A program made the position numbers and the translations under genes. Positions 36,728 to 63,695 of a stretch of 64,000 bases of DNA are shown piece after piece. Where the stretch lies: positions 1-64,000 of the forward strand of contig WGLR01000029.1 in assembly GCA_016125475.1 (NCBI GenBank), written 5' to 3'. The notes beneath the pieces are model-generated. The model ran no database searches, was not told where the DNA came from, and worked only from the letters and a program-made list of their open reading frames with translations. The first letter of the stretch is position 1. Every line of letters starts with the position of its first letter. This DNA comes from Betaproteobacteria bacterium. GTDB lineage: Bacteria > Pseudomonadota > Gammaproteobacteria > Burkholderiales > Ga0077523.

Positions 36728-36762
36728 GCGTGGTCTCCGGTCGCCCGCTCCGCCGCGCCTCG

Positions 36763-37593
36763 TCAGAAGAACGCCGTGATGACCGAATCGAGCGCGTCAC
36801 GCATGTCCGCGTCGTCGGTGATCGGGCGCACGAGCGTGACGCGACAGGCCGCGACGGCGTCGATGCCCCGCGCGATCAGGTGCCCGGCGTGGATCAGCAT
36901 CCGCGTGGACACGCCTTCCTCGAGCCCGTGCCCCTTGAGATTGCGCGTCTTCTCGCCGATGGAGACGAGTCGTCCGGCGATCTCGCCCGAGACACCCGCC
37001 TCGTGCGCGACGATCTCGATCTCGACGTCGCGCGCGGGGTAGTGGAAGTCGAGCGCACCGAAACGCTGCTTCGTGGACTGCTTGAGATCCTTCAGGATGC
37101 TCTGGTAGCCGGGGTTGTAGGAGATCACGAGCTGGAAGTCCGGGTGCGCGTGCACGAGCTCGTTCTTCTTCTCGAGCGGCAGACAGCGTCGCGCGTCGGT
37201 GAGCGGGTGGATCACGACGGCCGTGTCCTGTCTTGCCTCCACGACCTCGTCCAGGTAACAGATCGCGCCGTAGCGCGCGGCGAGCGTGAGCGGTCCGTCC
37301 TGCCAGCGCGTGCCCTCCGCGTCGAGCAGATAGCGGCCCACGAGGTCGGATGCCGTCATGTCCTCGTTGCACGCGAGCGTCACGAGCGGGCGCTTCAGCC
37401 GCCACGCCATGTACTCGATGAAGCGGGTCTTGCCGCAGCCCGTCGGTCCCTTGAGCATCATCGGCAGGCGCGCGGCATATGCGGCCTCGTAGAGTTCGAT
37501 CTCGCTGCCGATCGCACGGTAATAGGGTTCTTCCGGGATCCGGTACTGCTCGATCACACCGGGCGTATCGGACGGCAGGTTCATGTTCGTCAT
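36763..37593 (-). CDS. CbbQ/NorQ-like MoxR AAA+ ATPase
   Basis: The product has 276 residues, the usual size for CbbQ/NirQ/NorQ/GvpN. Walker A is GPTGCGKT (49-56), Walker B CYLDEV (112-117), sensor 1 ISYNPGYQ, and the C-terminal lid has [11 protein letters not shown]. The family forms hexamers that work with a VWA partner to activate a metal enzyme. It lies 55 bp after ureD and 35 bp before the CbbO/NorD-like gene on the same strand. It is therefore the thirteenth gene of the amide/urea array. An alternative start lies three codons in. Pseudomonas amidase operons also carry an ATPase (AmiB), a possible functional parallel. Confidence 0.9.
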
Positions 37594-37648: not shown

Positions 37649-38503
37649 TCACTTGCGCCGCGGACCGGGCGCGGAGCCCGTCACGACGCGACGCGCAGCC
37701 GCCCACGCGTCGCGCACGAGACGGCGCAGCGCCACGGAATCGCTCGACAGCGCGCGCATCCACGCGCCGCATCCCCCGGGCAGCAGCGAGGCGCCCGCAT
37801 AGACGCTGCCGGCGTCGGGGAGGACCGAGCGCAGCGCCGCGAGCACTTCGTCGGGGGCGTGCGCGTGCACGACCCAGAGCGAGGCCTGCATCGTGTAGGG
37901 CCCGTGTATCCCGACCTGCCGCGCGCCGATCTCTTCCCCCGAAACCTCGAAGCGGTCCAGCGCGATCGTCTCCCCCGTCATCGTTTCGAGACGTGTTTCG
38001 GCGCGCAACGCCGCGAACGGTTCGTCGGCCCCGCGCGGATCGTGCGCGAGGAAACTGTCGCAGGCGATCACGGTGGCGGAGGGGTCCGCCACGATCGAGA
38101 GCACGTTCGACAGGCGCGCGCGCGGAAAGAGGATCAGGGGATCGGGCAGGTACTCCACGATTGCGCGCGCGTCCGCGCGGATCGAGACGTGCTGCTCGGC
38201 GTGATCCGATTCCATCGAGTGCACGATGGTGGAGGCAGCGGTCGTGACGTGCGCACACGCGTCGGCGCCGGCCGCCAGGGACATGCCGAGGCGATCACCC
38301 TGGAATATTCCGCCCGAGCACGACTGGATGTAGACGGTACAGAACTCCGGAGGATCACCGGGCAGGTAGAGGGCACGGCAGAGGTGAAACGGATAGGCTA
38401 CCCGCTGTCGTCTCAGGAAGGTCCGCGTGCCCGGCGCCCCGCCGAATGCGACCTGCACGTGGCGGGTGGCCTCGGCGGGTTCGACCTCTCCCGCGACCAG
38501 CAT
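37649..38503 (-). CDS. ureD: urease accessory protein UreD
   Basis: The product has 284 residues from the ATG at 38503, 4 nt after the ureG stop; a TTG at 38518 overlapping ureG is possible. Conserved UreD features include [43 protein letters not shown] and [13 protein letters not shown]. UreD forms the platform on which UreF and UreG deliver nickel to apo-urease. Gene order ureG-ureD and the near overlap show co-expression with the divergent urease. Confidence 0.93.
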
Positions 38504-38507
38504 GCGG

Positions 38508-39167
38508 TCACCGGTCAAAGAGCACCTCGCGCGCGATGTGTTCCATCACCGCGTCGACCCCCTCGCCCGTGTGGCAGTTCGTCGTGAGGACGGGACGTCC
38601 GCCGCGTACCTCGTTCGCCTCGCGCAGCATGCGGTCGAGATCGCTGCGCACGTAAGGGGCGAGATCGGTCTTGTTGATCACGAGCAGGTCGCACGACAGC
38701 ACGCCGAGGCCGCGCTTGCGCGGGATGTCGTCACCGCCCGCCACGTCGATCACGAACATCCAGAAATCGACGAGGTCGAGCGAGAAGGACGACGCGAGGT
38801 TGTCGCCGCCCGACTCGATCAGGATGAGCTCGAGCCCCGGAAACGTGCGGTCGAGTTCGTCGGCGGACTGCATGTTGAGCGTGGGATCCTCGCGGATGGC
38901 GGAGTGCGGGCACGCGCCGGTCTCGACGGCCAGCACGCGCTCGGGCGCGAGCAGGCTGGTGCGGCGCACCCGCTCCGCATCTTCCTTGGTCGCGATGTCG
39001 TTCGTGATCACCGCGAGATTCGTGCCGCGCGCGGTGAAACGTGGAATCAGCTGCTCGAGAAGCGCCGTCTTGCCCGACCCGACCGGGCCGCCCACGCCCA
39101 CCCGCGCGGCGCTTCGCGGCGCGGATGCGGCGGCGACCGCCGGGAATCCTGGTGTGATCTCGTTCAT
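38508..39167 (-). CDS. ureG: urease accessory GTPase UreG
   Basis: The product has 219 residues from the ATG at 39167. It is a SIMIBI-class GTPase with P-loop GPVGSGKT (27-34), the nickel-binding CPH motif in [22 protein letters not shown], and the base-specificity motif NKTDLAPYV. An N-terminal 20-residue Ala-rich extension precedes the core. UreG carries nickel and couples GTP hydrolysis to its insertion. It lies 23 bp after ureC and is followed directly by ureD. Confidence 0.95.
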
Positions 39168-39190
39168 GTGACTGCGTCGTCTCCGGTGTG

Positions 39191-40903
39191 TCAGCGAAGC
39201 ATATACCGCTGGGCGAGCGGTACAACCCGGGCCGGCTCGCACGTGATCACGTCGCCGTCCACCCGCACGTCGAAGGTCTGTGGATCGACCGTGATGTTCG
39301 GACAGGCGGTGTTGTGCAGCATGTGCGACTTGTTGAGCTTGCGCGTCCCGTGCGCGGGCAGCACGAGTTTCCGCAGGCCCAGCTTTCCGGCCACGTCCGC
39401 ATCGACCGCGCTCTGGTTCACGAAGCACGCGGACAGCGGCTTCCTGGCCTCGCCGAAGGCACCCCACTGCGGACGCATCATCATCGGCTCGCAGGTCATC
39501 AGCGACGCCGCCGAGTCGCCCATGGCGGACCAGGCGATGAAGCCCCCCTTCACGACGAGCTCGGGCTTGATGCCGAAGAACGCGGGCCGCCAGAGCACGA
39601 TGTCCGCGAGCTTGCCCTTCTCGAGCGAGCCCACGTGCGCGTCGATGCCGAACGTGCGCGCGGCGTTGATCGTGTACTTCGCGATGTACCGCCTGATGCG
39701 CTCGTTGTCGCCGATGGGTGTCGCCTCCTCCGGCAGACGTCCGCGCTGATCCTTCATCTTCGACGCGAGCTGCCACGTCCGGCAGATCACCTCGTTGATG
39801 CGTCCCATGCCCTGGCTGTCCGACCCCAGCATCGAGATGGCCCCCATGTCGTGCAGGACGTCCTCGGCCGCGATGGTCTGGGCGCGAATGCGACTCTCCG
39901 CGAACGCGACGTCCTCCGGGACCGCAGGATTCAGGTGGTGACACACCATGATCATGTCCAGGTGCTCGTCGAACGTGTTCACGGTGTAGGGGTTGGTCGG
40001 ATTCGTCGACGACGGGAGGCAGTTCATCTGCCCCGCGACCGCGATGATGTCGGGTGCGTGACCGCCGCCCGCGCCTTCGGTGTGGTACATGTGGATCGTG
40101 CGGCCGCGGATGGCCGCGAGCGTGTCCTCGAGGAAGCCTGCCTCGTTGAGCGTGTCCGTGTGCAGCTGTACCTGGAAGTCGAGGTCGTCCGCCACGCGCA
40201 GGCACGTGTCGATCACGGCCGGCATCGCGCCCCAGTCCTCGTGGATCTTGAGGCCGAGGCAGCCGCCCGCCAGCTGGTCGACGAGCGACCGCGGCTTCGA
40301 CGAATTGCCGCGGCCCAGGAAGCCGAAGTTCATCGGCCACTGCTCCGCCGCCTGCAGCATCTTGCCGACGTTCCACGCGCCTCCGCAGTCGATGCCGACC
40401 GTGATCGGACCGAGCGACCCGCCGATCATCGTCGTGAGACCCGACGCGATCGCGTGCTCGACGAGCTGCGCCGAATCGAAGTGGACGTGCACGTCGATGC
40501 CTCCCGGCGTCGCGACGAGACCCTCGCCGTCACGCACGGTCGTGGCCGCGCCGCAGATCAGGTCCGGGTGCACCCCGTCCATGATGGCGGGATTCCCGGC
40601 CTTGCCGATACCCACGATGCGGCCGTCCTTGATGCCGATGTCGCCCTTCACGATGCCGACCACGGGGTCGATGATCACGACGTTCGAGATCAGCATGTCC
40701 AGGGACCCGGCGGCGCTGTCGTAGCCGGGCACGAGCCCGATGCCGTCACGCAGCGTCTTGCCCCCGCCGTGCAGACACTCGTCGCCCGGCACGGCATGGT
40801 CGTGCTCGATCTCGGCGATCAGCGACGTGTCGCCGAGGCGCACGCCGTCGCCCCGCGTCGGGCCGTAGAGTTGCGCATACTCCCTGCGCGTCATCGTCGC
40901 CAT
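39191..40903 (-). CDS. ureC: urease alpha subunit, divergent paralogue
   Basis: The product has 570 residues. All Ni-site residues are kept: His139/His141 (HVHF), carbamylated Lys219 and His221 (GLKIHEDW), His248, His274 (HTEGAGGGH) and Asp362 (SDSQGMGR). The flap Cys321-His322-His323 (MVCHHL) is also kept. Two loops differ from the canonical UreC at 61308-63014: CPQQ after HIHF is replaced by DSAQ (143-146), and the [11 protein letters not shown] loop by [11 protein letters not shown] (161-171). Gly-Ala-Thr-Pro after the Lys/His pair is GAMP. It pairs with a fused UreA-UreB three bp upstream. It is probably an active Ni amidohydrolase; urea is the default substrate but is not assured. Confidence 0.9.
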
Positions 40904-40906
40904 GTC

Positions 40907-41602
40907 TCATGCTCCCCTGAAGCCGCGATTGCGCGCGTTCTGCAGCGCCTGATCCTTCACGATGTCGCTGCGTGTCGCGCCGTTGGTGAGTCCGTTCAGG
41001 CCGTGAACCTCGCCGGTGCCCCCGAACGCGACGAGCGTCACCTCCTTTTCTTCCCCCGGCTCGAACCGCACCGCCGTGCCGGCGGGGATGTCGAGGTGCA
41101 TGCCGAACGCGGCCGCGCGGTCGAAGTCGAGCGCGCGGTTCGTCTCGAAGAAGTGATAGTGACTGCCGACCTGGATCGGCCGGTCTCCCGTGTTGCGCGC
41201 CCGGACCGTGGCCCTGCGACGCCCCGGGTTGATCTCGATGTCGCCGTCGGCCGGAATGATCTCGCCGGGCCTCACGCCGCTCCCCGAGGCCTGCGCGCCG
41301 GGCCGGATCGGGTCGTGCACCGTCACGAGCTTGGTACCGTCGGGGAACGTCGCCTCGACCTGGAGCATCGGCATCATCTCGGCCACGCCTTCCATGACGT
41401 CGTCGGCGCCGAGCAGCGTCGACCCGAACGCGATGAGGTCCGCGACCGAGCGCCCCTCACGCGCGCCCTCGAGGATCTCGTCCGCGATGATCGCGACGGC
41501 CTCCGGGTGATTGAGCTTGAGCCCCTTCGCGCGACGCTTGCGCGCGAGTTCGGCCGCGGTGTAGATCGTCAGGCGTTCGAGCTCCGTGGGCGTCAACAGC
41601 AT
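40907..41602 (-). CDS. ureAB: fused urease gamma-beta subunit (UreAB)
   Basis: The product has 231 residues with a strong GAGGAGG ribosome site. Residues 1-100 are UreA (gamma): [49 protein letters not shown] linker at about 100-112 leads to UreB (beta), with [34 protein letters not shown] and [17 protein letters not shown]. About 20 extra C-terminal residues follow. Such a fusion is best known from Helicobacter UreA. In this window the second urease has the two subunits as separate genes. It lies 3 bp before ureC. Confidence 0.93.
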
Positions 41603-41752
41603 CGGACTTCACCTCCTCGTTCCTGGATGACGGCCCGCCCCGTGCGGACCGGAATGACTGCCTGCCGGAATCGCGCCTCGGCACCTGCCACGCGAGACCG
41701 GGTCTGCGCCTCGCCTCGCAGGGTCGAAAGGTGTCTGCGGAACACGGACATG

Positions 41753-42433
41753 TCAGTTCGCGAACAGCCTGCCCGTGCCCACTTCGTGCCGCATCATCGC
41801 GATCTCCGCCATGGGCGTGTAGGCATGCAGACTTTCGATGCCAGCGGGCGGGCCAGCCGCGACCTCGACGGCGAGGGGCCGGCAGCGCGAGAGGATGCGC
41901 TGTCCGTCGAGGTGTCCCAGCAGACCCACGCGGAGCGCGGCGCTCACGATCGCGACGCCGACCCCGTAGGCCGACAGCGCACACGTCGCGGACTCGGACA
42001 GACCGCAACCGAATCCCGCAAGCCCCTGGACTGCCGCCAGCTGCCCCGGCGCGTGGCCGCTCGCGACGCGGTCCCGGTAGCTCGCGGCGCCCGGCGTTCC
42101 GAGCCCTGCATGGACGCGCAGCAGGGCAGCACCGATCCGACGACCTCCCTCGCGGGCCTCGCGCGCGAGCGTCGCGGCATCCGCCTCGCGGTCGACGGCC
42201 GCAACGACCTCGAGATCACCGTGTGCGCGATGAGAGGCCAGGACCACCGGCCGGTCGAACGTGGCCCAGCGCAGCCGGATCTGGCCGGCAAGGAAGGCTT
42301 CGACGTCGCCCGCGCGGGCGAGGTGGCCTTCCGCGCGAAGCGTCTCGAGTCCCCACGAGAACGACGCGGCCCCACTCGGGAAGAAGCTGTCCCCGAGCTG
42401 GAGGAGCGCCATCGCCCCGGACAGATCACTCAT
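41753..42433 (-). CDS. ureF: urease accessory protein UreF
   Basis: This 226-residue all-helical protein has the UreF core: LLQLGDSFFPSGAASFSWGL at the N-terminus, the invariant Arg-rich middle, and SAALRVGLLGHLDGQRIL. HAYTPMAEIAMMRHEVGTGR at the C-terminus docks on UreD. It activates the UreG GTPase cycle. The start overlaps ureE by 8 bp. A 150-bp gap with no recognisable signal follows before ureAB. Confidence 0.93.
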   Translation of the reverse strand: MSDLSGAMALLQLGDSFFPSGAASFSWGLETLRAEGHLARAGDVEAFLAGQIRLRWATFDRPVVLASHRAHGDLEVVAAVDREADAATLAREAREGGRRIGAALLRVHAGLGTPGAASYRDRVASGHAPGQLAAVQGLAGFGCGLSESATCALSAYGVGVAIVSAALRVGLLGHLDGQRILSRCRPLAVEVAAGPPAGIESLHAYTPMAEIAMMRHEVGTGRLFAN

Positions 42434-42875
42434 CGGCGATTACCCTCACCTTGCCCTCGTCGACGAGGTGCGCGATGCGGCGCAGATAGTCGTCCCGCGG
42501 ACCTTCCATCGACACGTGCAGCATCTCGGCGACGAACCGGACCTTCCAGTGCATGTTGCCGCAGAAGTACCCCAGTTCCAGCGCGGCGGCCGCATCCCTC
42601 GGCACGAGCGCGAGCCACTGCGGTTCGTCCAGCCGCACGACGATCGCGCGTCCGGGCTCGAGCAGCAGCACGGCGCCGTTGGACAGCCGATCCTGGCGGT
42701 CGAGCATGATGCCCACCTCGGTGCCGCGGTCGGTGAATGCGTGCAGGCGTCGGCGCGCGGTATCGGCGCGACTGACCGTGAGGATCTCCACCCCGCCGGC
42801 GTGCTCCACACGGTGGAGAGCCTCGCCGAGGCGCGCGTCGCTCGCGTTTCCGAGCACTTGTGTGAGCCGCAACAT
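42426..42875 (-). CDS. ureE: urease accessory metallochaperone UreE
   Basis: The product has 149 residues. N-terminal domain RRRLHAFTDRGTEVGIML and C-terminal metal-binding domain ELGYFCGNMHWKVRF, with the conserved His of the dimer-interface nickel site, identify UreE. There is no His-rich C-terminal tail, so it is the simple, low-capacity form. It overlaps ureF by 8 bp and follows amiE after a 113-bp gap that contains a 12-bp hairpin. Confidence 0.9.
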   Translation of the reverse strand: MLRLTQVLGNASDARLGEALHRVEHAGGVEILTVSRADTARRRLHAFTDRGTEVGIMLDRQDRLSNGAVLLLEPGRAIVVRLDEPQWLALVPRDAAAALELGYFCGNMHWKVRFVAEMLHVSMEGPRDDYLRRIAHLVDEGKVRVIADE

Positions 42876-42988: not shown

Positions 42989-44029
42989 CTACTTGTGGAC
43001 GGTCGCCTTCGGATTGGGAATTCCCTCGATCGGGCATTCCTCGGTGCCGACCGTCGTGCGGGTCATGGCCTCGACCATTTCGCGCGTGCCGTCCGGATCC
43101 GTGATCCACTTCTTGTAGAAGTCGTACGGACATGCCGCCACACCCTTCTCGTCCTCGCGCGAGTTGATCTTGCCCGTGTACCCGCGGTGCAGCAACTTGA
43201 AGAGGTGGTTCTCGGACTGGCCGTTGCGGCGTGCGTCCCGGATCAGCGACTTGGAGAGCTGCGCGTACTGGATGCCGTAGTCTTCCTCGCCGCACTCGCC
43301 GAGGGTCCGTCCGTCGAAACCGATGATCGCGGAATGGCCGAAGTACGAGTAGACGCCGTCGAAGCCCGCCGCATTCGCGACGGCGACGTAGGAATTGTTT
43401 GCCCAGGCCATCGCCTTCGCCATGACGACCTGCTGGTCCTTCGCGGGATACATGTATCCCTGGCAGCGCACGATGAGCTCTGCCCCCTTCATGGCGCAGT
43501 CGCGCCAGATCTCCGGATAGTTGCCGTCATCACAGATGATGAGCGACACCTTGAGCCCCTTGGGCCCGTCGGACACGTACGTGCAGTTGCCCGGATACCA
43601 GCCCTCGATGGGCACCCACGGCATGATCTTGCGGTACTTCTGGACGATCTCGCCCTTGTCGTTCATGAGGATGAGCGTGTTGTACGGTGCCTTGTTCGGG
43701 TGTTCCTCGTGACGCTCGCCGGTCAGGGAGAACACGCCCCACACCTTGGCCTTGCGGCAGGCGTCCGCGAAAATCTCGGTTTCCTCGCCCGGGCAGGTCG
43801 ACGCGGTCTCGTACATTTCCTTGCTGTCGTACATGATCCCGTGGGTGCTGTATTCCGGGAAGATCACGAGATCCATGCCCGGCAGACCCACCTTCATGCC
43901 CACGATCATCTCGGCGATCTTCCGTGCGTTCGCGAGCACCTCCGCCTTCGTGTGCAGACGCGGCATCTTGTAGTTGACCACTGCAACGCCGACGGTGTCA
44001 TTACTGCTGGAAATATCTCCGTGCAACAT
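42989..44029 (-). CDS. amiE: aliphatic amidase AmiE
   Basis: The product has 346 residues from the ATG at 44029 (AAGGAG 9 nt upstream), exactly the length of Pseudomonas AmiE. The nitrilase-superfamily triad falls at the same numbers: Glu59 (FPEYST), Lys134 (YRKIMPW) and Cys166 ([10 protein letters not shown]). Trp144 and the C-terminal extension with [10 protein letters not shown] are also kept. It hydrolyses short aliphatic amides to acid and ammonia, in the cytosol. It lies between a urtABCDE transporter and the urease genes on one strand. Its usual control genes amiC and amiR lie divergent at the head of the array. Confidence 0.95.
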
Positions 44030-44206
44030 TTCGAACACTCCTTGAACGTCGTTTGTCGGAACCGGGTGGAACGGCATCCCGGGTCTTGTCGCGCTGGACT
44101 CTCGACTGCCGGCCGCGCGAGGCCTGCCCACCATCGCGAAGCGGGCCACTCACTCCCTGGTCCGGCGCGTCACCTCGCCGGAAACGCGCCGGGCCGAAAT
44201 TCCTCC

Positions 44207-44247: not shown

Positions 44248-44937
44248 TCAGATGGTCAGGTAGCTGTGGATCCTTGCCTGGTCCACCGTTTCCTTCGGAC
44301 CCTCGTAGACGAACTCGCCCTTCTCGATGATCAGGAACCGGTCCGCGACGTCCACCGCGAACGAAAGGACCTGCTCCGACACCACGAGCGAGAAGCCGCG
44401 GTCCGTCTTGAGGCGGTTCAGTGCCTGCGCGATGTCCTTGATGATCGAGGGCTGGATGCCTTCCGTCGGCTCGTCGAGGATCAGCACCTTCGGGTTGCTG
44501 ACGAGCGCCCGGGCGATCGCGAGCTGCTGCTGCTGACCGCCGGACAGGTTGCCGCCCCGGCGCGTCTTCATCTCGGCGAGCACGGGGAACACGTCGTACA
44601 CGTAGGCGGGCACGGTCTTGTCGACGACGTTCTCCATGCCCGTGAGGATGTTCTCCTCGACCGTCAGGTACGGGAAGATCATGCGCCCCTGGGGCACGAA
44701 GCCCATGCCCGCGGCCACGCGAGCGAAACTGGGGCGCCCCGAGATCAGGTCCCCGCCGAGGGAGATCTCGCCCGAACGGGCCGGCAGCATGCCGATCAGG
44801 GACTTGAGCAGCGTGCTCTTGCCCATGCCGTTGCGCCCCATGATCGCGACGGTTTCCCCTTCGGCAACGTCGAAGGCGACGTCGCGAATCACGTGGCTCT
44901 CGCCGTAGTAGACGTTCAGTCCCGAGACTTTCAGCAT
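44248..44937 (-). CDS. urtE: UrtE-type branched-chain/urea ABC transporter ATPase
   Basis: The product has 229 residues from the ATG at 44937, 2 nt after the urtD stop. Walker A is GRNGMGKST, the signature LSGGQQQQLAIARA, and Walker B LILDEPTEGIQPSII. The EGIQPSII sequence is characteristic of UrtE. With UrtD it powers uptake by the UrtBC permease. The order urtA-B-C-D-E followed by amiE suggests import of amides and/or urea. It is regulated with the whole array through the leader upstream of urtA. Confidence 0.92.
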   Translation of the reverse strand: MLKVSGLNVYYGESHVIRDVAFDVAEGETVAIMGRNGMGKSTLLKSLIGMLPARSGEISLGGDLISGRPSFARVAAGMGFVPQGRMIFPYLTVEENILTGMENVVDKTVPAYVYDVFPVLAEMKTRRGGNLSGGQQQQLAIARALVSNPKVLILDEPTEGIQPSIIKDIAQALNRLKTDRGFSLVVSEQVLSFAVDVADRFLIIEKGEFVYEGPKETVDQARIHSYLTI

Positions 44938-44939
44938 GT

Positions 44940-45677
44940 TCAGTGCCCCAGATAGACGTCCTTGACCCGCTCGTCGGCCTGGACCTGATCCATCGTGCCC
45001 TCGGCGAGCATCCTGCCCTGATGCAGCACCGTGACCTTGTGCGCGATCATCCTCACGAACGCCATGTCGTGCTCGATGACGACGATCGAACGGCCCTTCG
45101 ATATCGCGTTGAGCAGCGACGCCGTCTGTTCGCGCTCCTTCGCGCTCATGCCGGCGACGGGCTCGTCGAGCAGCAGCAGTTCGGGGTCCTGCATGAGCAG
45201 CATTCCGATCTCGAGCCACTGCTTCTGGCCGTGACTGAGCTGCCCGGCCTTGTGGCGCAGGACCTCGTGCAGGAAGATCCTCTCCGACACCTCGTCGATC
45301 TTTGCGAGGAGGTCGGCGTCGCGCTTGAAGAAGAGCGACCCCATGAGCCCGCGTCGCTTCGGATACGAGATCTCGAGGTTCTCGAAAACCGTGAGGTCCT
45401 CGTAGACGCTAGGGTTCTGGAACTTCCGGCCGACCCCGACCCGCGTGATCTGGTACTCGAGCATGTCCGTGAGGTCGAATCGCTTGAACCTGATCGAACC
45501 GCCGGTGGGTCGGGTCTTGCCGCAGATCATGTCGAGCAGCGTCGTCTTGCCCGCGCCGTTGGGCCCGATGACGCACCGCAGTTCGTCCTTCTCCACGTAG
45601 AAGTTCAGGGAGTCCACGGCCCGGAAGCCGTCGAACGACACCGTGAGGTCCTCGACGGACAGGATGTTCTCGCTCAT
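44940..45677 (-). CDS. urtD: UrtD-type ABC transporter ATPase
   Basis: The product has 245 residues from the ATG at 45677, overlapping the urtC stop by 4 bp. Walker A is GPNGAGKTT, the signature LSHGQKQWLEIGM (the LSHGQ variant typical of UrtD), and Walker B LLLLDEPVAGM. VGVGRKFQNPSVYEDLTV is also characteristic. It is the second ATPase of the UrtABCDE importer. Confidence 0.93.
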   Translation of the reverse strand: MSENILSVEDLTVSFDGFRAVDSLNFYVEKDELRCVIGPNGAGKTTLLDMICGKTRPTGGSIRFKRFDLTDMLEYQITRVGVGRKFQNPSVYEDLTVFENLEISYPKRRGLMGSLFFKRDADLLAKIDEVSERIFLHEVLRHKAGQLSHGQKQWLEIGMLLMQDPELLLLDEPVAGMSAKEREQTASLLNAISKGRSIVVIEHDMAFVRMIAHKVTVLHQGRMLAEGTMDQVQADERVKDVYLGH

Positions 45678-46894
45678 TTCCCGCCTCCCACCTCGCCCGC
45701 GAGACGTGCGGCCGGGCGTTCGCCCGCCGCCTGCCCGGCCGCATCCGGCTCCGGCCCCGGTAGCGCGGCCAGCCGGTGCCGCTTCGCGCCGGGCAGCTTG
45801 TCGAGCAGCCCCGCGAGTCCGTGCGGCAGGAACATCACGATCACGATGAACAGGCCGCCGATGAGGTAGAGCCAGAATTCGACGAAGTTCTCCGAGAAGA
45901 ACGTCTTCGCGGCCCCGACGAGCATCGCACCGTAGACGGCCCCCACGAGCGACAGTCGTCCGCCGACGGCGGCGTAGATCACCATCTCGATCGACGGCGT
46001 GATGCCCACGAGCGACGGTGACGCCAGTCCGACCTGCAGCGTGAACATGGCCCCCCCGATGGACGAGAACAGCGCCGCCACCGCGAAGATGAACGCCTTG
46101 AAGAGCGCCGGGTCGTAGCCCGAGAAGCGCACGCGGTCTTCCCGGTCCCGAATGGCCACCAGCACCTTGCCGAGACGACTGCGCAGGATGAAGGTGCCGA
46201 TCAGCACGCACACGAGCAGCAGCACGCAGGTGATGTAGTACATCGCGATCTTGACGTTGTCGGGATCGAGGTTGATGCCCATGAACGTGCGGAAGTCCGT
46301 GATGCCGTTGACGCCCCCCGTGACGCCCTGCTGCCCGATGATCACGATCGCGAGGATCGCGGAGAACGCGAGCGTGATGATGGAGAAGTACACGTCGCCG
46401 ATGCGACGCCGGAAGTTCAGGTACGAGAGCACGAACGCGACGACTGGCGGCAGGATCAGGATCGCCGGAATCGTGAACCAGACGTGGTGGAACGGCTCCC
46501 ACCACCAGGGCAGTTGCTCCACGCTGTTCCAGACCATGAAGTCCGGCAGGTTCGAGCCGAAGAACGAGGAGAGCGCCTGGGCCGACGTGTCGGCCCCCGT
46601 GGACTCGAGCTTCAGGAACATCGCCATCATGTAGCTGCCGAGCCCGAAGAACACGCCCTGTCCGAGGCTCAGGATCCCGCCGTAGCCCCAGATCAGCACG
46701 ATGCCGACCGCACAGAAGGCGAGCGAGAGGTACTTCGCGGCCAGGCCGAGCCGGAAGATGTCCAGCGACAGCGGCAACACGGCGAGCAGCACCACGGCGA
46801 GGATCACGATCGCGTACCGCTGCAGGAAGCCGCGGGAAACCGGTGCGATCGCGGCGGCCATGCGGCTCCGCGACTCCTGGGACGGAGCGGTCAT
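45674..46894 (-). CDS. urtC: UrtC-type ABC transporter permease
   Basis: The product has 406 residues from the ATG at 46894, overlapping urtB by 4 bp. It has about ten membrane helices. It carries the LivM/UrtC motifs IWGYGGILSLGQGVFFGLGSY, GVTGGVNGIT and VAIRDREDRVRFSGYD (the EAA-like coupling loop). The last roughly 40 residues are a charged cytoplasmic tail rich in Ala, Pro and Gly. It forms the translocation path together with UrtB. Confidence 0.92.
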   Translation of the reverse strand: MTAPSQESRSRMAAAIAPVSRGFLQRYAIVILAVVLLAVLPLSLDIFRLGLAAKYLSLAFCAVGIVLIWGYGGILSLGQGVFFGLGSYMMAMFLKLESTGADTSAQALSSFFGSNLPDFMVWNSVEQLPWWWEPFHHVWFTIPAILILPPVVAFVLSYLNFRRRIGDVYFSIITLAFSAILAIVIIGQQGVTGGVNGITDFRTFMGINLDPDNVKIAMYYITCVLLLVCVLIGTFILRSRLGKVLVAIRDREDRVRFSGYDPALFKAFIFAVAALFSSIGGAMFTLQVGLASPSLVGITPSIEMVIYAAVGGRLSLVGAVYGAMLVGAAKTFFSENFVEFWLYLIGGLFIVIVMFLPHGLAGLLDKLPGAKRHRLAALPGPEPDAAGQAAGERPAARLAGEVGGGK

Positions 46895-47793
46895 CTTCTC
46901 ACCTTTGTCGCGAACAGGCCGTTCGGCCGGAAGAAGAGCACGACGATCACGAGCAGCAGGATGCTCGCACGCGCCATCGAGCCGCTCAGCTCGAACTCGA
47001 ACCACGACTGCATCTGGCCGATGATGAACGCCGAGGAGATCGTGCCGAGCAGACTCTCGACGCCGCCGAACACCACGACGATGAAGGTGTCGACGATGTA
47101 GTGCTGGCCCGTCGTCGGTCCCGTCGAGGCGAGCATCGTGAACGAGCTGCCGGCGATGCCGGCAAGGCCGCACCCGAGTGCGAACGTGTAGGCGTCGACG
47201 CGTGCGGTGTTGATCCCGGCGGCCCCGGCCATCGCGCGGTTCTGCGTGACTGCCCGGATCCGCAGCCCCCATCGCGTCCGGAACAGGAGCCAGTAGACGG
47301 CGGCGGCCGTCACGATGGCGAGCACGACGATGAAGATGCGCGAGAGCGGGAGTGCGATGCCGTCGGTAGGCTGCCAGGCGCCCTGAAGCCAGGACACGGT
47401 CGGCACCTCCACCTCCTTCGAACTGATGAACTGTCGGTAGACCTGCTGCAGGACGAGGCTCAGACCCCACGTCGCGAGCAGCGTGTCGAGCGGACGCTTG
47501 TACAGGAAGCGGATCAGTCCTCGCTCGAGCAGGAACCCGAATGCGCTCGTGACCACGAACGCGAGCAGTATCCCGACGAACACGTAGTAGTCCATCATGG
47601 ACGGCGCGAAATTCTCGAAGAATCGCGCCGCACCGTAACTGCAGTAGGCGCCCATCGCCATCAGCTCGCCGTGAGCCATGTTGATCACGCCCATGAGCCC
47701 GAACACGATCGCGAGCCCCAGGGCCATCAGCATGAGGATGGTGAAGATGGACAGGCCCGTGAATGCCTGCATGGCAAGCACGTCGAATGTCAT
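46891..47793 (-). CDS. urtB: UrtB-type ABC transporter permease
   Basis: The product has 300 residues and about eight helices. The LivH/UrtB motifs are FGLMGVINMAHGELMAMGAY near the N-terminus, the coupling loop LRIRAVTQNRAMAGAAGI, and VVFGGVESLLGTISSAFIIG. It is the length of the core permease, without the long periplasmic N-terminal extension some cyanobacterial UrtB proteins carry. It is separated from urtA by a 161-bp gap and overlaps urtC. Confidence 0.92.
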   Translation of the reverse strand: MTFDVLAMQAFTGLSIFTILMLMALGLAIVFGLMGVINMAHGELMAMGAYCSYGAARFFENFAPSMMDYYVFVGILLAFVVTSAFGFLLERGLIRFLYKRPLDTLLATWGLSLVLQQVYRQFISSKEVEVPTVSWLQGAWQPTDGIALPLSRIFIVVLAIVTAAAVYWLLFRTRWGLRIRAVTQNRAMAGAAGINTARVDAYTFALGCGLAGIAGSSFTMLASTGPTTGQHYIVDTFIVVVFGGVESLLGTISSAFIIGQMQSWFEFELSGSMARASILLLVIVVLFFRPNGLFATKVRR

Positions 47794-47954: not shown

Positions 47955-49145
47955 TTACAGCTTCGGGAAGGGATTCGGCTCGATGAGGGGCGACTCGTAC
48001 ACCATGTTCACCTGGCCGTCGGGGAGGAAGGTGCCGATGCGCGCGTGCTTCCAGAGGTGGTGGTTGGACTTGTGGAACCTGACCTTGCCCTCGGGTGCAT
48101 CGATCTCGAGCCCCGACGACGCCGCGACCACCTTCTCGACATCGAAGCTCTTCGCCTTCTCGGCCGCGAGCTTCCAGAGATACACCGAGTTGTAGCCGCA
48201 CTCGAGCGTGTCTCCCGTCACCCTGTTCTGTCCGTACTTGGCCTTGAAGGCCTTCACGAACTTCTGGTTCTCGGGGTTCTTGAGACTCTGGAAGTAGCCC
48301 ATGCAGGTCATCGTGCCCGCGGTGTTGTCCGCGCCGATTCCGGACACCTCCTCCTCGGACACCGCGAGCGAGAGGATCGTCTGCTTGTCGCCGGTGATGC
48401 CGGAAGCCGTGAGCTGCTTGAAGAACGCCACGTTGGACCCGCCCACCACGCAGTTGAGGATCACGTCGGGCTTCGCGGCCTTGATCTTGTTGATCTCGGA
48501 CGAGAACTCGATGTGGCCGAGCGGGTAGTACCCCTCGCCGACGAGCTTGCCGCCCAGTTTCTTCAACGTGTACTTCGCGATCTTGATCGTCGTGCGCGGC
48601 CAGATGTAATCCGAGCCGATCATGTAGAAGGTCTTGCCCTTGTTCTTGTAGAGCCAGTCCATCGCGGCGATGACGGACTGCGTGGCTTCCTGCGCCGTGT
48701 ACATGATGTTCGGCGACATCTCGAGGCCTTCGTAGTACGTCGGGTAGTAGAGCAGGCCCTTGAGCTTCTCGAAGACCGGCAGCACCGCCTTGCGGGACGC
48801 CGACGTGTAGCACCCCATCACGGCTGCGACGCGGTCACGCTCCAGCAGCTTGCGCGCCTTCTCCGCGAACGTCGGCCAGTCGCTTGCGCCGTCCTCGACG
48901 ACCGGTTCGATGCGGTGGCCCATCACGCCGCCCGCCTTGTTGATCTCCTCGATGGCGAGCATCTCCGCATCCACCACCGACTTCTCGGCGATCGCGATCG
49001 TTCCGGTCAGCGAGTGGAGGATTCCGACCTTGACCGTGCCCGCGGCTTCCGCCGAACGGAGATTGATCATCGGAAACGGCACCGCACTCGCGGCAGCCAG
49101 TGCACTGGAGGTCTTGATGAAATTCCGCCTGTTGATATTGCTCAC
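47955..49145 (-). CDS. urtA: UrtA-type substrate-binding protein
   Basis: The product has 396 residues from a GTG at 49145 with AAGGGGAA upstream. The twin-arginine leader starts NRRNFIKTSSALAAASA. The mature chain is a type I periplasmic-binding fold with VGILHSLTGTIAIAEKSVVD, GCYTSASRKAVLPVFE, GLLYYPTYYEGLEMSPN and SDYIWPRTT, as in UrtA/FmdD-type proteins. It binds urea or short amides and delivers them to UrtBC. It is first gene of the array. Its leader carries a terminator and ANTAR-type hairpins. The divergently encoded AmiC is a leaderless relative. Confidence 0.92.
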   Translation of the reverse strand: MSNINRRNFIKTSSALAAASAVPFPMINLRSAEAAGTVKVGILHSLTGTIAIAEKSVVDAEMLAIEEINKAGGVMGHRIEPVVEDGASDWPTFAEKARKLLERDRVAAVMGCYTSASRKAVLPVFEKLKGLLYYPTYYEGLEMSPNIMYTAQEATQSVIAAMDWLYKNKGKTFYMIGSDYIWPRTTIKIAKYTLKKLGGKLVGEGYYPLGHIEFSSEINKIKAAKPDVILNCVVGGSNVAFFKQLTASGITGDKQTILSLAVSEEEVSGIGADNTAGTMTCMGYFQSLKNPENQKFVKAFKAKYGQNRVTGDTLECGYNSVYLWKLAAEKAKSFDVEKVVAASSGLEIDAPEGKVRFHKSNHHLWKHARIGTFLPDGQVNMVYESPLIEPNPFPKL

Positions 49146-49242: not shown

Positions 49243-49285
49243 AAAAAAAAGCCCGCAGGTCGAGACGATTTCGACCTGCGGGCTT
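49243..49285 (-). terminator. leader terminator upstream of urtA
   Basis: Reading leftward, a 13-bp perfect stem (arms 49283-49271 and 49263-49251, GCCCGCAGGTCGA and complement) with a 7-nt loop is followed by eight T residues (49250-49243). It sits about 100 nt before the urtA start, downstream of a promoter. It is therefore an attenuator inside the leader, not the end of a gene. Confidence 0.88.
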
Positions 49286-49320
49286 CTTTGCCGTGGCGCT
49301 GCGCGGGACGCCTTTGTCCC
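49281..49320 (-). promoter_or_regulatory. predicted ANTAR target: two A1/G4 hexaloop hairpins
   Basis: In the leader RNA, hairpin P1 (49320-49305) is GGGAC-AAAGGC-GUCCC. Beyond a G-G mismatch three more pairs extend the stem. After a 12-nt linker, hairpin P2 (49292-49281) is GGC-AAAGAA-GCC. Both loops are six nt with A at position 1 and G at position 4, the signature bound by ANTAR proteins. The 3' arm of P2 is the first three nt of the terminator's 5' arm, so P2 and the terminator exclude each other. The matching ANTAR protein AmiR is encoded 1.7 kb away. Confidence 0.75.
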
Positions 49321-49347
49321 CCGCCGCGCGAATTCCAATTCGCGTAC

Positions 49348-49376
49348 AGATTTTCACGCGAGTCCTGTGTTGTCAA
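49348..49376 (-). promoter_or_regulatory. promoter of the urt-ami-ure array
   Basis: There is a perfect TTGACA (-35) at 49376-49371 and a weak -10 (AAATCT) 17 bp downstream at 49353-49348. The start point would be near 49341, giving a leader of about 195 nt. That leader first forms an 8-bp palindrome (CGCGAATT/AATTCGCG, 49344-49327), then P1, P2 and the terminator. Confidence 0.6.
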
Positions 49377-49806
49377 GCATCGCGCGCTTCGGTCCCGTAT
49401 GTTGCAAGAGGCGGGCCGGGAATTGCTGCAGTGCGCTTCCGCACCGGTCGCGATCGCGGAAACGCTGGCTGGCAAAGGGAAATCGAGAATGGGCAACGGA
49501 CCGCCGAACCGGTCGGAACCACGTGGCCGCGCAAGACCGTGCACACGGCCCGCATTGTGCGGCACATCATTGGTGCGTCCGGGTGGAGCGCCGCCCTATA
49601 ATCGATCATGGCGGCGGGATGCGCGGACACGCAGGATCGAAGGAGGACCAAGACACCGGGACTCCGTGTCCGGCGCACTTCCTCTCGACAAACGGTCCGG
49701 GACTTGCTAATGATTCGCGTTGCACGGGTACGAACCTTCCATTCGCCCGCCCTGCGCAAGGACGCGCACCGGGCACACGCCGCGAGTACGAGATGAAAAA
49801 CGGCAC
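49377..49806 (+). promoter_or_regulatory. 430-bp amiCR upstream region with TATAAT box
   Basis: A perfect TATAAT lies at 49597-49602, about 205 nt before the amiC ATG; the -35 position (TGCGTC) is poor. I see no terminator in this leader and no convincing gene in the gap; the short frames inside it have no family-like composition. AmiC and AmiR are therefore probably made from a weak, constitutive-type promoter. Confidence 0.45.
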
Positions 49807-50967
49807 ATGATCTCTTCACATCACGACCCGGTTCGCATCGGGGTCCTGTTTTCGGAATCCGGCGTCACGTCGGTCATAGAGACCTCGCAGCGCATCGGCA
49901 CGATGCTGGCCGTCGAGGAAATCAACGCGTCGGGCGGCATCGACGGACGCGAACTGCAGATGATCTTCCGGGATCCGCAGTCGCGCCCATCGCTCTACCG
50001 CACGCTCGCGGAGGAGCTCATCGTCGAGGAGGACATCCGCGTGATCGCCGGCTGTTACATGTCGAGCACGCGGAAGGCGGTGATCCCCGTCCTCGAGAGA
50101 TGGAATGCGCTCCTGCTCTATCCGACGCTGTACGAAGGGTTCGAGTACTCCCGGCACGTCTTCTACACGGGCGCGGCCCCGAACCAGAACAGCGTCCAGC
50201 TCGCCGAGTTCATGACACGCAAGTTCGGCTCGCGCGTGTTCATGGTGGGTTCCGACTACGTGTATCCGTACGAGTCCAACCGCATCATGAGCGACCTCGT
50301 TCTCGAGCGAGGCGGCGAGAAGGTCGCGGAACACTATCTCCCGCTCGGCGCCACGCAGTCGGACTTCGATGCAGTGGTGCGCCTGGTGCGCGACGACAGC
50401 CCGGACTTCATCTTCTCGACCGTCGTGGGCGAGGGCACGGCCATGCTATACCGGGCCTACCGCGAAGCCGGTCTCGACCCCGCACGGATGCCGATCGCGA
50501 GCCTCACGACCTGCGAGGCCGAGGTCGCCCAGATGGGTGCCGAGTTCGCGGAAGGGCACATCACGTCCGCCCCCTACTTCCACTCGGTCGACACACCCGC
50601 GAACCGGAAGGCCGTCGAGGCCCTGCAGGCGGGCTTCGGTTCGTCGCAGCTCGCGAACCAATGTCTCGAAGCCGCGTATTTCCAGATCCACCTTCTCGCC
50701 GACGCGATGCGCCGCGCGAATCCCGACGAAGTGGAATCGCTGCTCCGTGCACTTCCCGGATCGGAATTCGAGGCACCGCAGGGTCGTGTCCGGATCGACG
50801 AGCAGAACCACCACACGCATCTGCATCCCCGGATCGGCCGCGCGAACACCCGCGGGCAGTTCGACATCCTGGAGCAGGCCAAGGACCGCGTCCGCCCGGA
50901 CCCCTACCTCGTCTCGCACACGCTGCAGGACTGGTCGGTACGGACGGCCCTGCGTTCGAGCGCATGA
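49807..50967 (+). CDS. amiC: AmiC amide sensor / negative regulator of AmiR
   Basis: The product has 386 residues from the ATG at 49807, without a signal peptide, so it is cytoplasmic. It has the type I periplasmic-binding fold with VRIGVLFSESGVTSVIETSQ, GCYMSSTRKAVIPVLERWN and LLLYPTLYEGFEYSRHVFYT, which matches AmiC. In Pseudomonas AmiC sequesters AmiR and releases it when acetamide-like ligands bind. It is followed by amiR after 19 bp. It is clearly related to the UrtA protein of the divergent operon (the YxSxxRKAVxPV and LLxYPTxYEG motifs are shared). Confidence 0.92.
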   Translation: MISSHHDPVRIGVLFSESGVTSVIETSQRIGTMLAVEEINASGGIDGRELQMIFRDPQSRPSLYRTLAEELIVEEDIRVIAGCYMSSTRKAVIPVLERWNALLLYPTLYEGFEYSRHVFYTGAAPNQNSVQLAEFMTRKFGSRVFMVGSDYVYPYESNRIMSDLVLERGGEKVAEHYLPLGATQSDFDAVVRLVRDDSPDFIFSTVVGEGTAMLYRAYREAGLDPARMPIASLTTCEAEVAQMGAEFAEGHITSAPYFHSVDTPANRKAVEALQAGFGSSQLANQCLEAAYFQIHLLADAMRRANPDEVESLLRALPGSEFEAPQGRVRIDEQNHHTHLHPRIGRANTRGQFDILEQAKDRVRPDPYLVSHTLQDWSVRTALRSSA

Positions 50968-50986: not shown

Positions 50987-51604
50987 ATGAAGACGCACGG
51001 TTCCGGCACCTCGAAGCTGCTGCGGGAACTGCGTTCGCTGAACGTCGTCGTGTACCACCCCGAGGACGCGGACGGCCAGGAGCTGATCGCACAGCTGCGC
51101 CGGATCGGGTGTCACGTGAAGGCGTTCTGGCCCCCGAGAAAGTCGCTCCCCGACGAGACGGACCTCGTCTTCCTGGCGGTGAGGCCCGAAGTGGCCTCCT
51201 TCGATCCGGCCTGGAGCAGGCGCGACGATGCGCCTCCCGTGATCGTCATCGTGAACTACGAAAATCCGACGATGGTGGAAAGCGTCCTCAGGCTGAACGC
51301 GTTCGGCGTGGTCGCGGCGCCGGTCAAGTCGTTCGGACTGCTCACGACGATCGTGGTCGCACGCAACCAGATCGAGCGCGTGCGCGAGCGCGTGCGATAC
51401 GTCGCGAAGCTCGAGCAGCGGCTCGCGAGTCAGCGCAAGATCGCGAAGGCCAAGACGATCCTCATGCAGACCCGGTCCGTGAGCGAGGAGGACGCCTACA
51501 AGCTCATCCGGGAGCAGGCCATGACCAAGCGCGTGACCACCGAAGAGATCGCGGACGCGATCATCAAGGCCAACGACATCCTCTCGTTCGACGCCAAGCC
51601 CTGA
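50987..51604 (+). CDS. amiR: AmiR ANTAR-domain antiterminator
   Basis: The product has 205 residues from the ATG at 50987. It has a pseudo-receiver domain lacking the phospho-Asp (LNVVVYHPEDADGQEL, DLVFLAVRPEVASFDP) and a long coiled coil (ERVRERVRYVAKLEQRL). The C-terminal three-helix ANTAR domain has AKAKTILMQTRSVSEEDAY, KLIREQAM and EEIADAIIKAND. It binds two hexaloop hairpins in nascent RNA and prevents terminator formation. Such an element lies in the urtA leader. AmiC immediately upstream would hold it inactive without amide. Confidence 0.93.
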   Translation: MKTHGSGTSKLLRELRSLNVVVYHPEDADGQELIAQLRRIGCHVKAFWPPRKSLPDETDLVFLAVRPEVASFDPAWSRRDDAPPVIVIVNYENPTMVESVLRLNAFGVVAAPVKSFGLLTTIVVARNQIERVRERVRYVAKLEQRLASQRKIAKAKTILMQTRSVSEEDAYKLIREQAMTKRVTTEEIADAIIKANDILSFDAKP

Positions 51605-61307: not shown

Positions 61308-63014
61308 CTAGAACAGGAAGTAGCGCTGCGCCATCGGCAGTACGGACGCGGGTTCGCAGGTCAGCAGCACGCCGTCGGCGCGGACTTCATAGGTCTGCGC
61401 GTTCACTTCCATCCTGGGTGTCGCACCGTTGTAGGGAAGGTCGCGCTTGCGCACGGTGCGCGTTCCGCGTACCGGCACGAGACGCTTGGCGAGACCAAGT
61501 TCGCGCCCGATGCCCGCGTCGAGCGCGTCGGCCGAGACGAACGTGACGCTCGTCGACGTGAGCGCGCGCCCGAATCCGCCGAACATCGGCCGGTAGTGCA
61601 CGGGCTGGGGGGTCGGGATGGACGCGTTGGGGTCTCCCATCGCGGCCGCGGCGATCAGGCCGCCCTTCAGGACGAGGCTCGGCTTCACGCCGAAGAACGC
61701 GGGGCGCCAGAGCACGAGGTCCGCGAGCTTGCCGGGTTCGACGGAACCTACCTCGTGCGCGACACCGTGCGTGAGCGCCGGATTGATCGTGTATTTCGCG
61801 ATGTAGCGCTTGATGCGGACGTTGTCGTTGTCGCCCTGCTCTTCCAGGAGGGGCCCGCGCTGGACACGCATCTTGTGGGCCGTCTGCCACGTGCGGAGGA
61901 TGACCTCGCCCACCCGCCCCATCGCCTGGGAATCCGACGACATCATGCTGATCGCACCCATGTCGTGGAGGATGTCCTCCGCCGCGATCGTCTGCGGACG
62001 AATCCGCGACTCCGCGAATGCGACGTCCTCCGGAATCGAAGCGTCCAGGTGATGACACACCATGAGCATGTCCAGATGCTCCTCGAGCGTGTTCACCGTG
62101 AACGGGCGCGTGGGATTCGTCGACGACGGCAGCACGTTGCCCTCGCCGACGACCTTGATGATGTCCGGCGCGTGACCGCCTCCGGCACCCTCGGTGTGGA
62201 ACGTGTGGATCGTGCGGCCCTTGAAGGCGGCGATGGTCGTCTCGACGAAACCCGATTCGTTGAGCGTGTCCGTGTGGATCGCGACCTGGACGTCCGTGCG
62301 GTCCGCGACGGCCAGGCACGCGTCGATCGCGGCGGGCGTCGTGCCCCAGTCCTCGTGCAGCTTGAGACCCATCGCCCCGGCGCGTACCTGCTCCTCGAGT
62401 GCAGCGGGCAGGCTCGCGTTGCCCTTGCCCATGAAACCGAGGTTCATCGGAAACGCCTCGGCCGCCTCGAGCATGCGATGGATGTTCCAGGGCCCGGGCG
62501 TGCACGTCGTCGCATTCGTTCCGGTCGCGGGCCCGGTGCCTCCGCCGAACATGGACGTCACGCCAGACATCAGGGCTTCCTCGATCTGCTGCGGACAGAT
62601 GAAGTGGATGTGAGAGTCGATGCCGCCCGCCGTGAGGATCATCCCCTCGCCCGCGATCACTTCGGTCGCGGCGCCGATCGGGATCGTTATCGCAGGCTGC
62701 ACGTCCGGGTTCCCGGCCTTGCCGATCTTCCAGATCCGGCCGTCCCGTATCCCCACGTCGGCCTTCACGATGCCCGTGTAGTCGACGACGAGGGCATTCG
62801 TGATCACGACGTCCGCCACCTCCGCAGACACGCGCTGGCTCTGACCCATGCCGTCACGGATGACCTTTCCGCCGCCGAACTTCACCTCCTCGCCGTACGT
62901 CGTGTAGTCCCGCTCGACTTCCAGCCAGAGGTCCGTGTCCGCGAGGCGCACCCTGTCGCCGACGGTCGGGCCGTACATCGCGCAGTAGGAGGCGCGATCG
63001 AGTCTGTTCGCCAT
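61308..63014 (-). CDS. ureC: urease alpha subunit, canonical
   Basis: The product has 568 residues with every canonical feature: HIHFICPQQ (His135, His137), [18 protein letters not shown], carbamylated Lys218 and His220 ([12 protein letters not shown]), His247, His273, flap Cys320-His321-His322 (MVCHHL), and Asp361 in SSDSQAMGR. It starts 2 nt after the ureB stop. It belongs to a ureA-ureB-ureC operon downstream of a urtE gene. No ureDEFG follows: the next gene is convergent. Maturation may use the accessory set at 37.6-42.9 kb or genes outside the window. Confidence 0.96.
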
Positions 63015-63016
63015 GA

Positions 63017-63322
63017 TCAGAGATCCCCCTGAACCTTCGCCTGGAATCCGTACACCTTCCGGTCGCCCGCGTAGGCCACCAGCGTGACCTCGCGCGACTG
63101 GCCGGGCTCGAACCGCACCGCCGTACCCGCCGCGATGTCGAGTCGCATGCCACGGGCCCTGGCACGGTCGAAAGAGAGCGCGTCGTTGACCTCGTGGAAG
63201 TGATAGTGGGAGCCGACCTGGACGGGACGGTCCCCGGAATTGGTCACGGTCAGGGTCACGGTCGGGCGCCCCGCGTTGAGTTCAATCTCGCCGGACGCGG
63301 TTCGGATTTCGCCTGGGATCAT
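63017..63322 (-). CDS. ureB: urease beta subunit
   Basis: The product has 101 residues from the ATG at 63322 with GAGGA upstream; the in-frame ATG at 63370 lacks support. [59 protein letters not shown] and YGFQAKVQG are standard UreB. It lies between ureA (70-bp gap) and ureC. Confidence 0.95.
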
Positions 63323-63392
63323 CGTGTGTCCTCGCGATGTGGAAGGGTGGTCTCTTGCGGGCACGCGCAACGGTCGCGCGGGGGGCGATCGG

Positions 63393-63695
63393 TCACGTGA
63401 TCGGGTTGTGCACCGTGACGAGCTTCGTCCCGTCCGGGAAGGTGGCCTCGACCTGGATCTCCGGAATCATCTCGGCCACGCCTTCCATTACGTCGTCGCG
63501 ACCGAGGAGCGTGGTGCCGAAGCTCATGAGATCGGCGACCGCCCGGCCGTCCCGTGCGCCTTCCATGACGGCAGCGGTGATGTACGCGACGGCTTCCGGA
63601 TAGTTGAGCTTGAGGCCCCGCGCCTTGCGCCTTTCAGCGAGCAGCGCAGCAGTGAAGACGAGAAGCTTGTCCTTCTCCCTGGGAGACAGGTCCAT
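63393..63695 (-). CDS. ureA: urease gamma subunit
   Basis: The product has 100 residues, the usual UreA length. It has [60 protein letters not shown] and [11 protein letters not shown]. It is the first subunit gene after urtE (75-bp gap), so transporter and enzyme are probably one transcript. Confidence 0.96.

Follow-up and report, generated by a model that had tools for sequence, protein, structure and literature searches.

Gene organization of the amiC-amiR and urtA locus

The window, that is, the whole stretch of DNA analyzed here, comprises 64,000 nt from Betaproteobacteria bacterium (GCA_016125475.1, contig WGLR01000029.1, positions 1 to 64,000 of the forward strand; GTDB lineage Bacteria; Pseudomonadota; Gammaproteobacteria; Burkholderiales; Ga0077523). 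Comparisons with Pfam, NCBIfam and the Protein Data Bank (PDB) revealed an amiC-amiR pair divergent from urtABCDE-amiE, which is followed by urease genes (Table 1). AmiC matched PDB 1pea with 369.4 bits, showing that an AmiC-type sensor is encoded beside AmiR. The Thr of YPT is kept in AmiC; the 1qnl sequence has Asn. The ORF carrying the AmiR_N and ANTAR domains lies on the plus strand and the array on the minus strand, confirming the divergent position of AmiR given in the original prediction. amiR, which adjoins the leader described below, was the sole ANTAR gene found in the genome (96.7% complete).

UrtA cleared the NCBIfam UrtA cut-off only narrowly (506.9 versus 492.75 bits), so its cargo could be urea, short amides or both. 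The inducer of AmiC is presumably a short aliphatic amide or urea, and urtABCDE-amiE and the urease genes are probably co-transcribed as a whole array. Beyond ureD, genes for a CbbQ/NorQ-type AAA protein and a VWA-domain protein were observed (34433–37593, minus strand); CbbQ- and NorD-like genes are also reported for a Pseudomonas plasmid amidase operon in a passage of PMC13209695. Apart from the urease set behind amiE, the window carries a second one (61308–63695, minus strand) with ureC, the ureA gamma subunit and a small ORF between them. An Rfam 5_ureB_sRNA match (62576–62862, plus strand, 88.5 bits) lies antisense to this second ureC (61308–63014, minus strand) and may simply reflect the conservation of urease coding sequence instead of marking an sRNA.

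Table 1. Features of the amiC-amiR and urtA locus, with positions in the window.
Feature	Position	Strand	Remarks
Urease genes ureE, ureF, ureAB, ureC, ureD	37649–42875	-	ureAB, fused gamma-beta
amiE, aliphatic amidase	42989–44149	-	Pfam CN_hydrolase; NCBIfam aliphatic amidase, 722.4 bits
urtB and ORFs with UrtC/D/E-type permease and ATPase domains	44248–47793	-	urtB at 46891–47793
urtA	47955–49145	-	Substrate-binding protein, urea/short-amide type ABC transporter
Intrinsic terminator and U8 tract	49243–49289	-	5' arm shared with P2
P2 antiterminator hairpin, GGC[AAAGAA]GCC	49281–49292	-	Only 3 bp; loop 49289–49284
P1 hairpin, GGGAC[AAAGGC]GUCCC	49305–49320	-	5 bp; loop 49315–49310
TTGACA	49371–49376	-	-35 of the original prediction; probably not the promoter
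Sigma-54-like -24/-12 element, CGGCCCGCCTCTTGCA	49403–49418	-	Predicted start probably about 49392
NtrC-like site, GCACCAATGATGTGC	49562–49576	-	158 bp upstream of the sigma-54-like element
Sigma-54-like element before amiC, CGGTCCGGGACTTGCT	49693–49708	+	-113/-114
amiC, amide sensor and AmiR inhibitor by homology	49807–50967	+	Best PDB matches 1pea and 1qnl (Pseudomonas aeruginosa AmiC)
amiR, pseudo-receiver and ANTAR antiterminator	50987–51604	+	Pfam AmiR_N and ANTAR in an overlapping ORF; PDB 1qo0 (AmiR), 6wsh (EutV)

A dual-hexaloop leader precedes urtA

The 661-nt intergenic region between amiC and urtA contains, on the minus strand (49324–49243), a leader composed of P1, a 12-nt linker, P2 and a terminator. 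The two hairpins with hexaloops AAAGGC and AAAGAA that had been predicted, with A1 and G4 in both loops, can be read directly from the sequence. The predicted 13-bp terminator with eight U residues was equally evident: its core pairs 49283–49271 with 49263–49251 (13 bp; 19 pairs including A-U pairs) and is followed by eight T at 49250–49243. As the 3' arm of P2 (GCC, 49283–49281) is also the start of the terminator core, the two structures compete, as originally proposed; this is apparent from both the overlap in sequence and the predicted folds. Taken together, the locus combines the features that define ANTAR dual-hexaloop leaders: two hexaloop hairpins of at least 3 bp, a linker of 5–12 nt, an overlap between P2 and the terminator, and an ANTAR gene in the genome.

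A 106-nt region spanning these elements folded with a z-score of -5.7, and none of 200 shuffles was equally stable. When both strands of the 64-kb window were scanned for two A1/G4 hexaloops, the second overlapping a strict terminator, this was the single place found; none of 1000 dinucleotide shuffles of the intergenic sequence (661 nt) produced the pattern. A separate terminator scan of the window reported none at the leader because its rule needs a T run after the stem, and most of the T residues here pair with A. No Rfam family reached its threshold in the leader; the window's one threshold Rfam match sits elsewhere. Thr_leader, a sub-threshold Rfam hit, was rejected as a homologue, as its alignment rests on the GCCCGC terminator.

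Folding of simulated nascent transcripts of the window gave P2 a probability of 0.82 to 1.00 before the terminator 3' arm was made and of 0.000 afterwards. In full transcripts of all twelve related leaders introduced below, the probability of P2 was 0.000 and its 3' arm was predicted to pair within the terminator with a probability of at least 0.998. In the simulated partial transcripts, L066 had a weak P2, as did L062 and L049 at one stage; a weak P1 was seen in L053, in L049 at one stage, and in the full-length L058 transcript.

The leader is conserved at related amiCR/urtA loci

Divergent amiCR and urtA-urtB genes were found in the window and at eleven other loci, and the leader was present in 12/12. 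amiE lies behind the urt genes in the window and at ten of the eleven loci; the contig of the remaining one, L103, stops short of amiE. A leader before urtA is usual in relatives with this arrangement. The original prediction had regarded a leader in front of the transporter of a transport-amidase-urease array as a departure from the usual ami arrangement. The gene content agrees with that prediction, and because amiE belongs to the same array, the position of the leader is less unusual than it suggested.

The twelve leaders were aligned (alignment A2), with L067 omitted, as its contig does not reach urtA, and L071–L073 omitted as repeats of L053, L055 and L056. The pairs of P1 and the terminator were kept in 93.7% of alignment cells versus 79.1% in shuffles, and 32 two-sided changes were counted versus 10.2; neither value was reached in any of 500 shuffles, tests that are inflated by the kinship of the aligned leaders. 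Slid structures on the same alignment kept at most 42.6% of pairs. Changes on both sides were seen in three of the five P1 pairs and six of the 13 terminator pairs. The P2 stem was invariant in 12/12 leaders, so covariation is uninformative for P2 and gives it no compensatory support; when P1 and P2 were taken together, 94 of 500 shuffles reached the changed-pair count and 466 of 500 the pair-type count. A1 and G4 of the P1 loop were kept in all twelve leaders and those of the P2 loop in eight, the exceptions being AAAAGA in three and GAGGAA in one. The closing pairs of P1 were AC/GU in 11/12 leaders, and the linker measured 10–12 nt in all twelve. A direct repeat looked for in the intergenic regions was inconsistent between loci.

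A strict dual-hexaloop scanner was tried as a homologue finder and set aside: it recovered only the window and L053, missing the others owing to mismatched terminators or other loops, and alignment and a covariance model were used instead.

In other AmiR lineages, amiE or urtA likewise has a leader-like structure in front. A dual-hexaloop survey covered 22 sites, one of which (L105 amiC) gave no dual hexaloop, and its automatic choice of P2 looks wrong by eye for L077, L105 urtA and L107 amiC. Among relatives of G202, L106 and L109 carry a dual-hexaloop leader in front of amiC and another in front of urtA; L104 stops short of the second gene, and the amiC side is ambiguous for L105 and L107. 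The leaders before amiC suggest that amiCR may be autoregulated in these relatives. In G444, a cytosine/purine-permease-like gene near urtA is preceded by two leader-like structures (L078, 7675 and 8156, minus strand); each of these has A at position 4 in its two loops.

Covariance-model search and distribution of AmiR

A covariance model built from the twelve leaders was run on 300 genomes of the order, with 15 candidates scored per genome and strict filters. Sixteen places scored above 38 bits, ten of them training sequences. Each of the six non-training sites stands before urtA, amiE or, downstream of an ANTAR gene, an NMT1-like transport gene: an amiE leader in G392, urtA leaders in G479, G450, G506 and G558, and an unexpected site in G379 (L159), where an ANTAR response-regulator gene is followed by a dual-hexaloop leader and then by an NMT1-like gene of the nitrate-transport type. 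The leaders of G392 and G506 had already been seen by eye before the search, and the matches in the nine AmiR-bearing genomes of the family, being the model's own training sequences, carry no evidential value. Lower scores formed a mixed list, in which the next four places inspected (36.1, 36.0, 35.1 and 34.3 bits) showed no urt or ami genes by tblastn and no dual hexaloop by eye. In the window's own genome, the next best match was this leader's terminator read on the other strand (30.9 bits), so the leader is probably the only target there.

AmiR_N is sporadic, occurring above the cut-off in 6/369 genomes of the class, in 18/300 genomes of the order at an E-value of 1e-20, and in nine of the 12 in the family. 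In G558, a member of the genus (95% complete), no ANTAR gene was found and a urtA leader is retained, in which A1 of P1 is changed to C and the U tract is short. In G479, a urtA leader with a shortened 3' terminator arm stands without adjacent amiCR; the sole ANTAR gene found there encodes a distant-type AmiR on another contig. G522 and G666 yielded neither an ANTAR gene nor a strong leader (best 23.5 bits and none). These few decayed or missing leaders appear to match what loss of the regulator would allow. The urtA leaders without adjacent amiCR in L156 and L157 look degraded.

A sigma-54-like promoter element lies upstream of the leader

The sigma-54 criterion was GG-N10-GC with the generally known -24/-12 consensus. 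Under this criterion, the best site on the urtA strand lay at -213 to -297 in nine of ten regions, with scores reached by 2 to 72 of 1000 shuffles each. L058 was the exception and lacked the element at the usual place (311/1000 shuffles as good). Four of five hold-out regions had the element at -242 to -253 (1 to 21 of 1000 shuffles); the fifth, L158, where just 422 nt are available, did not (373/1000 shuffles). Overall, the element was present at -213 to -297 in 13/15 regions. In the genus alignment it forms a conserved block upstream of the leader. Of the 444 windows (600 nt each) taken from ten of these loci with their leader regions, nine had sigma-54 scores of at least 14.4. On the other strand, the element before amiC occupies its -113/-114 position in the window and the four closest loci (5/5) and is not so placed in the other five of the ten regions.

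The pattern GCAC-N7-GTGC is NtrC-like. It was detected in six of the 15 regions (the window, L053, L064, L066, L156 and L157), and in the first four of these it lies 149–173 nt upstream of the sigma-54-like element. rpoN and ntrC are both present in the genome.

The original prediction had placed a perfect -35 upstream of P1. The exact TTGACA stands (49376–49371, minus strand), but it is probably not the promoter, as it is rarely conserved and has no matching -10: a sigma-70 scan with spacers of 16–18 found no promoter on the minus strand, and the hexamer occurred in two of ten regions (the window and L053) and in 0/5 hold-outs. Judged from these motifs, transcription of the urtA array most likely starts at a sigma-54/NtrC-dependent promoter.

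Proposed mechanism and alternative explanations

The anatomy of the leader, the competition between P2 and the terminator, the covariation of P1 and the terminator, the adjacent AmiC-AmiR genes and the leaders recovered by the model all support reading the region as an ANTAR leader, as the original prediction did. We consider it very probable from this sequence evidence that the leader is an ANTAR-type transcription attenuator controlled by AmiR in front of a urea/amide operon. RNA polymerase would start upstream, most likely at the sigma-54/NtrC-dependent promoter, and make the leader, in which P1 would fold first and P2 next. When no inducer is present, AmiC would hold AmiR, the 5' arm of the terminator would break P2, and transcription would stop at the U tract. 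When an amide (or urea) is bound, AmiC would free AmiR, whose ANTAR dimer would hold P1 and P2 and thus block the terminator. Read-through would then yield urtABCDE-amiE and probably the urease genes behind them. Binding of AmiR to the leader is a prediction of this model.

A strong terminator alone would attenuate, so a constitutive terminator or attenuator could lower urtA expression without control by AmiR, the hexaloops being incidental; the short and invariant 3-bp P2, whose G4 is missing in 3/12 leaders, is compatible with this. Against it, P2 keeps its GGC arm in 12/12 leaders even though this arm is not part of the terminator core, A1 and G4 of the P1 loop persist throughout although the P1 stem changes, and other amiCR loci, as well as one further ANTAR locus, show the same layout. 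Moreover, a terminator located between two divergent units and directed into urtA would have no ordinary job. We therefore regard constitutive attenuation as highly improbable. A still smaller chance, close to negligible, is given to a leader read by another factor, such as a riboswitch, another RNA-binding protein or an sRNA. Riboswitches share the leader-terminator layout, and weak hits to Thr_leader and Burkholderia sRNAs were obtained; however, these stay below the Rfam gathering scores, that to Thr_leader aligns on the terminator, and dual A1/G4 hexaloops beside an ANTAR gene fit better with AmiR.

The AmiR-controlled attenuator could also be transcribed from the sigma-70 -35 TTGACA instead of the sigma-54 promoter. 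The exact hexamer starts 56 nt before the P1 stem and recurs in L053, and L058, which lacks the usual sigma-54 element, has a sigma-70-like pair by eye. With no promoter on the minus strand at spacers of 16–18, and with TTGACA in 2/15 regions versus the far more widespread sigma-54-like element, we consider a sigma-70 start unlikely.

If controlled by AmiR, the attenuator at this locus would be a complete and conserved example from outside Pseudomonas, and its many natural variants come with known AmiR partners. The combination of elements suggests an AND gate in which nitrogen starvation, acting at the promoter, and amide, acting at the leader, would both be needed for the uptake-amidase-urease array, as in nas. 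The leader variants also make the loop specificity of ANTAR proteins testable.

AmiR branch variants and a possible loop code

Seven RNA-contact positions are named for EutV in a passage of PMC8934654, and Met172 is said there to plug the hexaloop. With EutV numbering anchored on AmiR at M172, the AmiR of the window is identical at K147, R168, M172 and R175, has R at K143 and T at both N173 and R177.

Six loci (L048, L050, L051, L052, L054 and L063), which belong to a separate AmiR branch and are all outside the alignment and the covariance model, carry amiC-amiR followed by a distant urtA (30–33% identity). All six showed P1 GCGGC[AGGGCT]GCCGC, a linker of 9–13, P2 GGC[UANGAA]GCC and a T run; under a strict scan, four yielded no terminator and two yielded 7-bp ones. 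The AmiR proteins of these U1-in-P2 loci have Thr at EutV position 172, and the 30 other AmiR proteins with a letter there all have Met. At position 147, Lys was found in nine urtA-type loci with G4 in P2 and Arg in the three with AAAAGA, with a counter-example in the relatives of G202, which have G4 in P2 and Gln at 147. A at position 4 of both loops was seen at five further sites among the 22 surveyed.

These co-changes raise the possibility, which we hold tentatively and think more doubtful than probable, that the leaders linked to AmiR bear a loop code and that this code and the ANTAR domain have drifted in concert. Each co-change is confined to one clade and thus counts as one event; position 172 adds support and position 147 a counter-example, leaving our assessment unchanged. 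If true, the loop code would be a readable protein-RNA specificity code.

Comparison with known systems

The amiE gene of P. aeruginosa has a leader of this kind, according to passages of PMC3369931 and PMC3369936. Based on its published description rather than a sequence alignment, that system shares with the present locus homologous AmiC and AmiR, P1, P2 and the terminator, and an aliphatic amidase in the target array. In contrast to P. aeruginosa, the leader here precedes urtABCDE, which is followed by amiE and urease genes; in addition, amiCR is divergent, and the promoter looks sigma-54-dependent.

The Enterococcus faecalis eutP, eutG, eutS and eutA leaders are described in part of PMC3369931 as having a dual hexaloop, a P2 overlapping the terminator and a linker of 5–12 nt, with sequence-specific AC/GU closing pairs of P1 in eutP. 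The dual hexaloop, the AC/GU closing pairs of P1, the linker range and the P2/terminator overlap are shared with the present leader. The regulators differ: EutV is phosphorylated by EutW, whereas AmiC holds AmiR, which carries a pseudo-receiver, as passages of PMC3369936 and PMC3369931 state.

At nasF of Klebsiella oxytoca, Ntr nitrogen control is combined with inducer-dependent ANTAR antitermination by NasR (from a passage of PMC5424462), and this two-level control is shared with the model proposed here. NasR contains its nitrate sensor within a single protein, whereas here, by analogy, a separate AmiC would sense and AmiR would bind the RNA; the targets also differ. For ANTAR genes, a survey from 2025 gives 66 predicted sigma-54 promoters, as stated in a section of PMC12316311.

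Urea transporters are named among the genes behind predicted ANTAR RNAs in a 2012 genome survey, where the relevant text of PMC3369931 gives no species, regulator or arrangement. A Klebsiella plasmid acetamidase operon combines amiE, amiC, amiR and transporter genes in one operon, as a passage of PMC13209695 relates; it differs in having four transporter genes, and urease genes and a leader go unmentioned in that passage. In word searches of the open-licence literature, we recognised no paper describing an AmiR leader before urtA. Nor did these searches reveal an account of a transporter-amidase-urease array that has a sigma-54-like promoter and a leader and stands divergent from AmiC-AmiR. 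The dual-hexaloop mechanism itself is already published for amiE, nasF and the eut genes, and it is well supported that the leader before urtA is another such switch.
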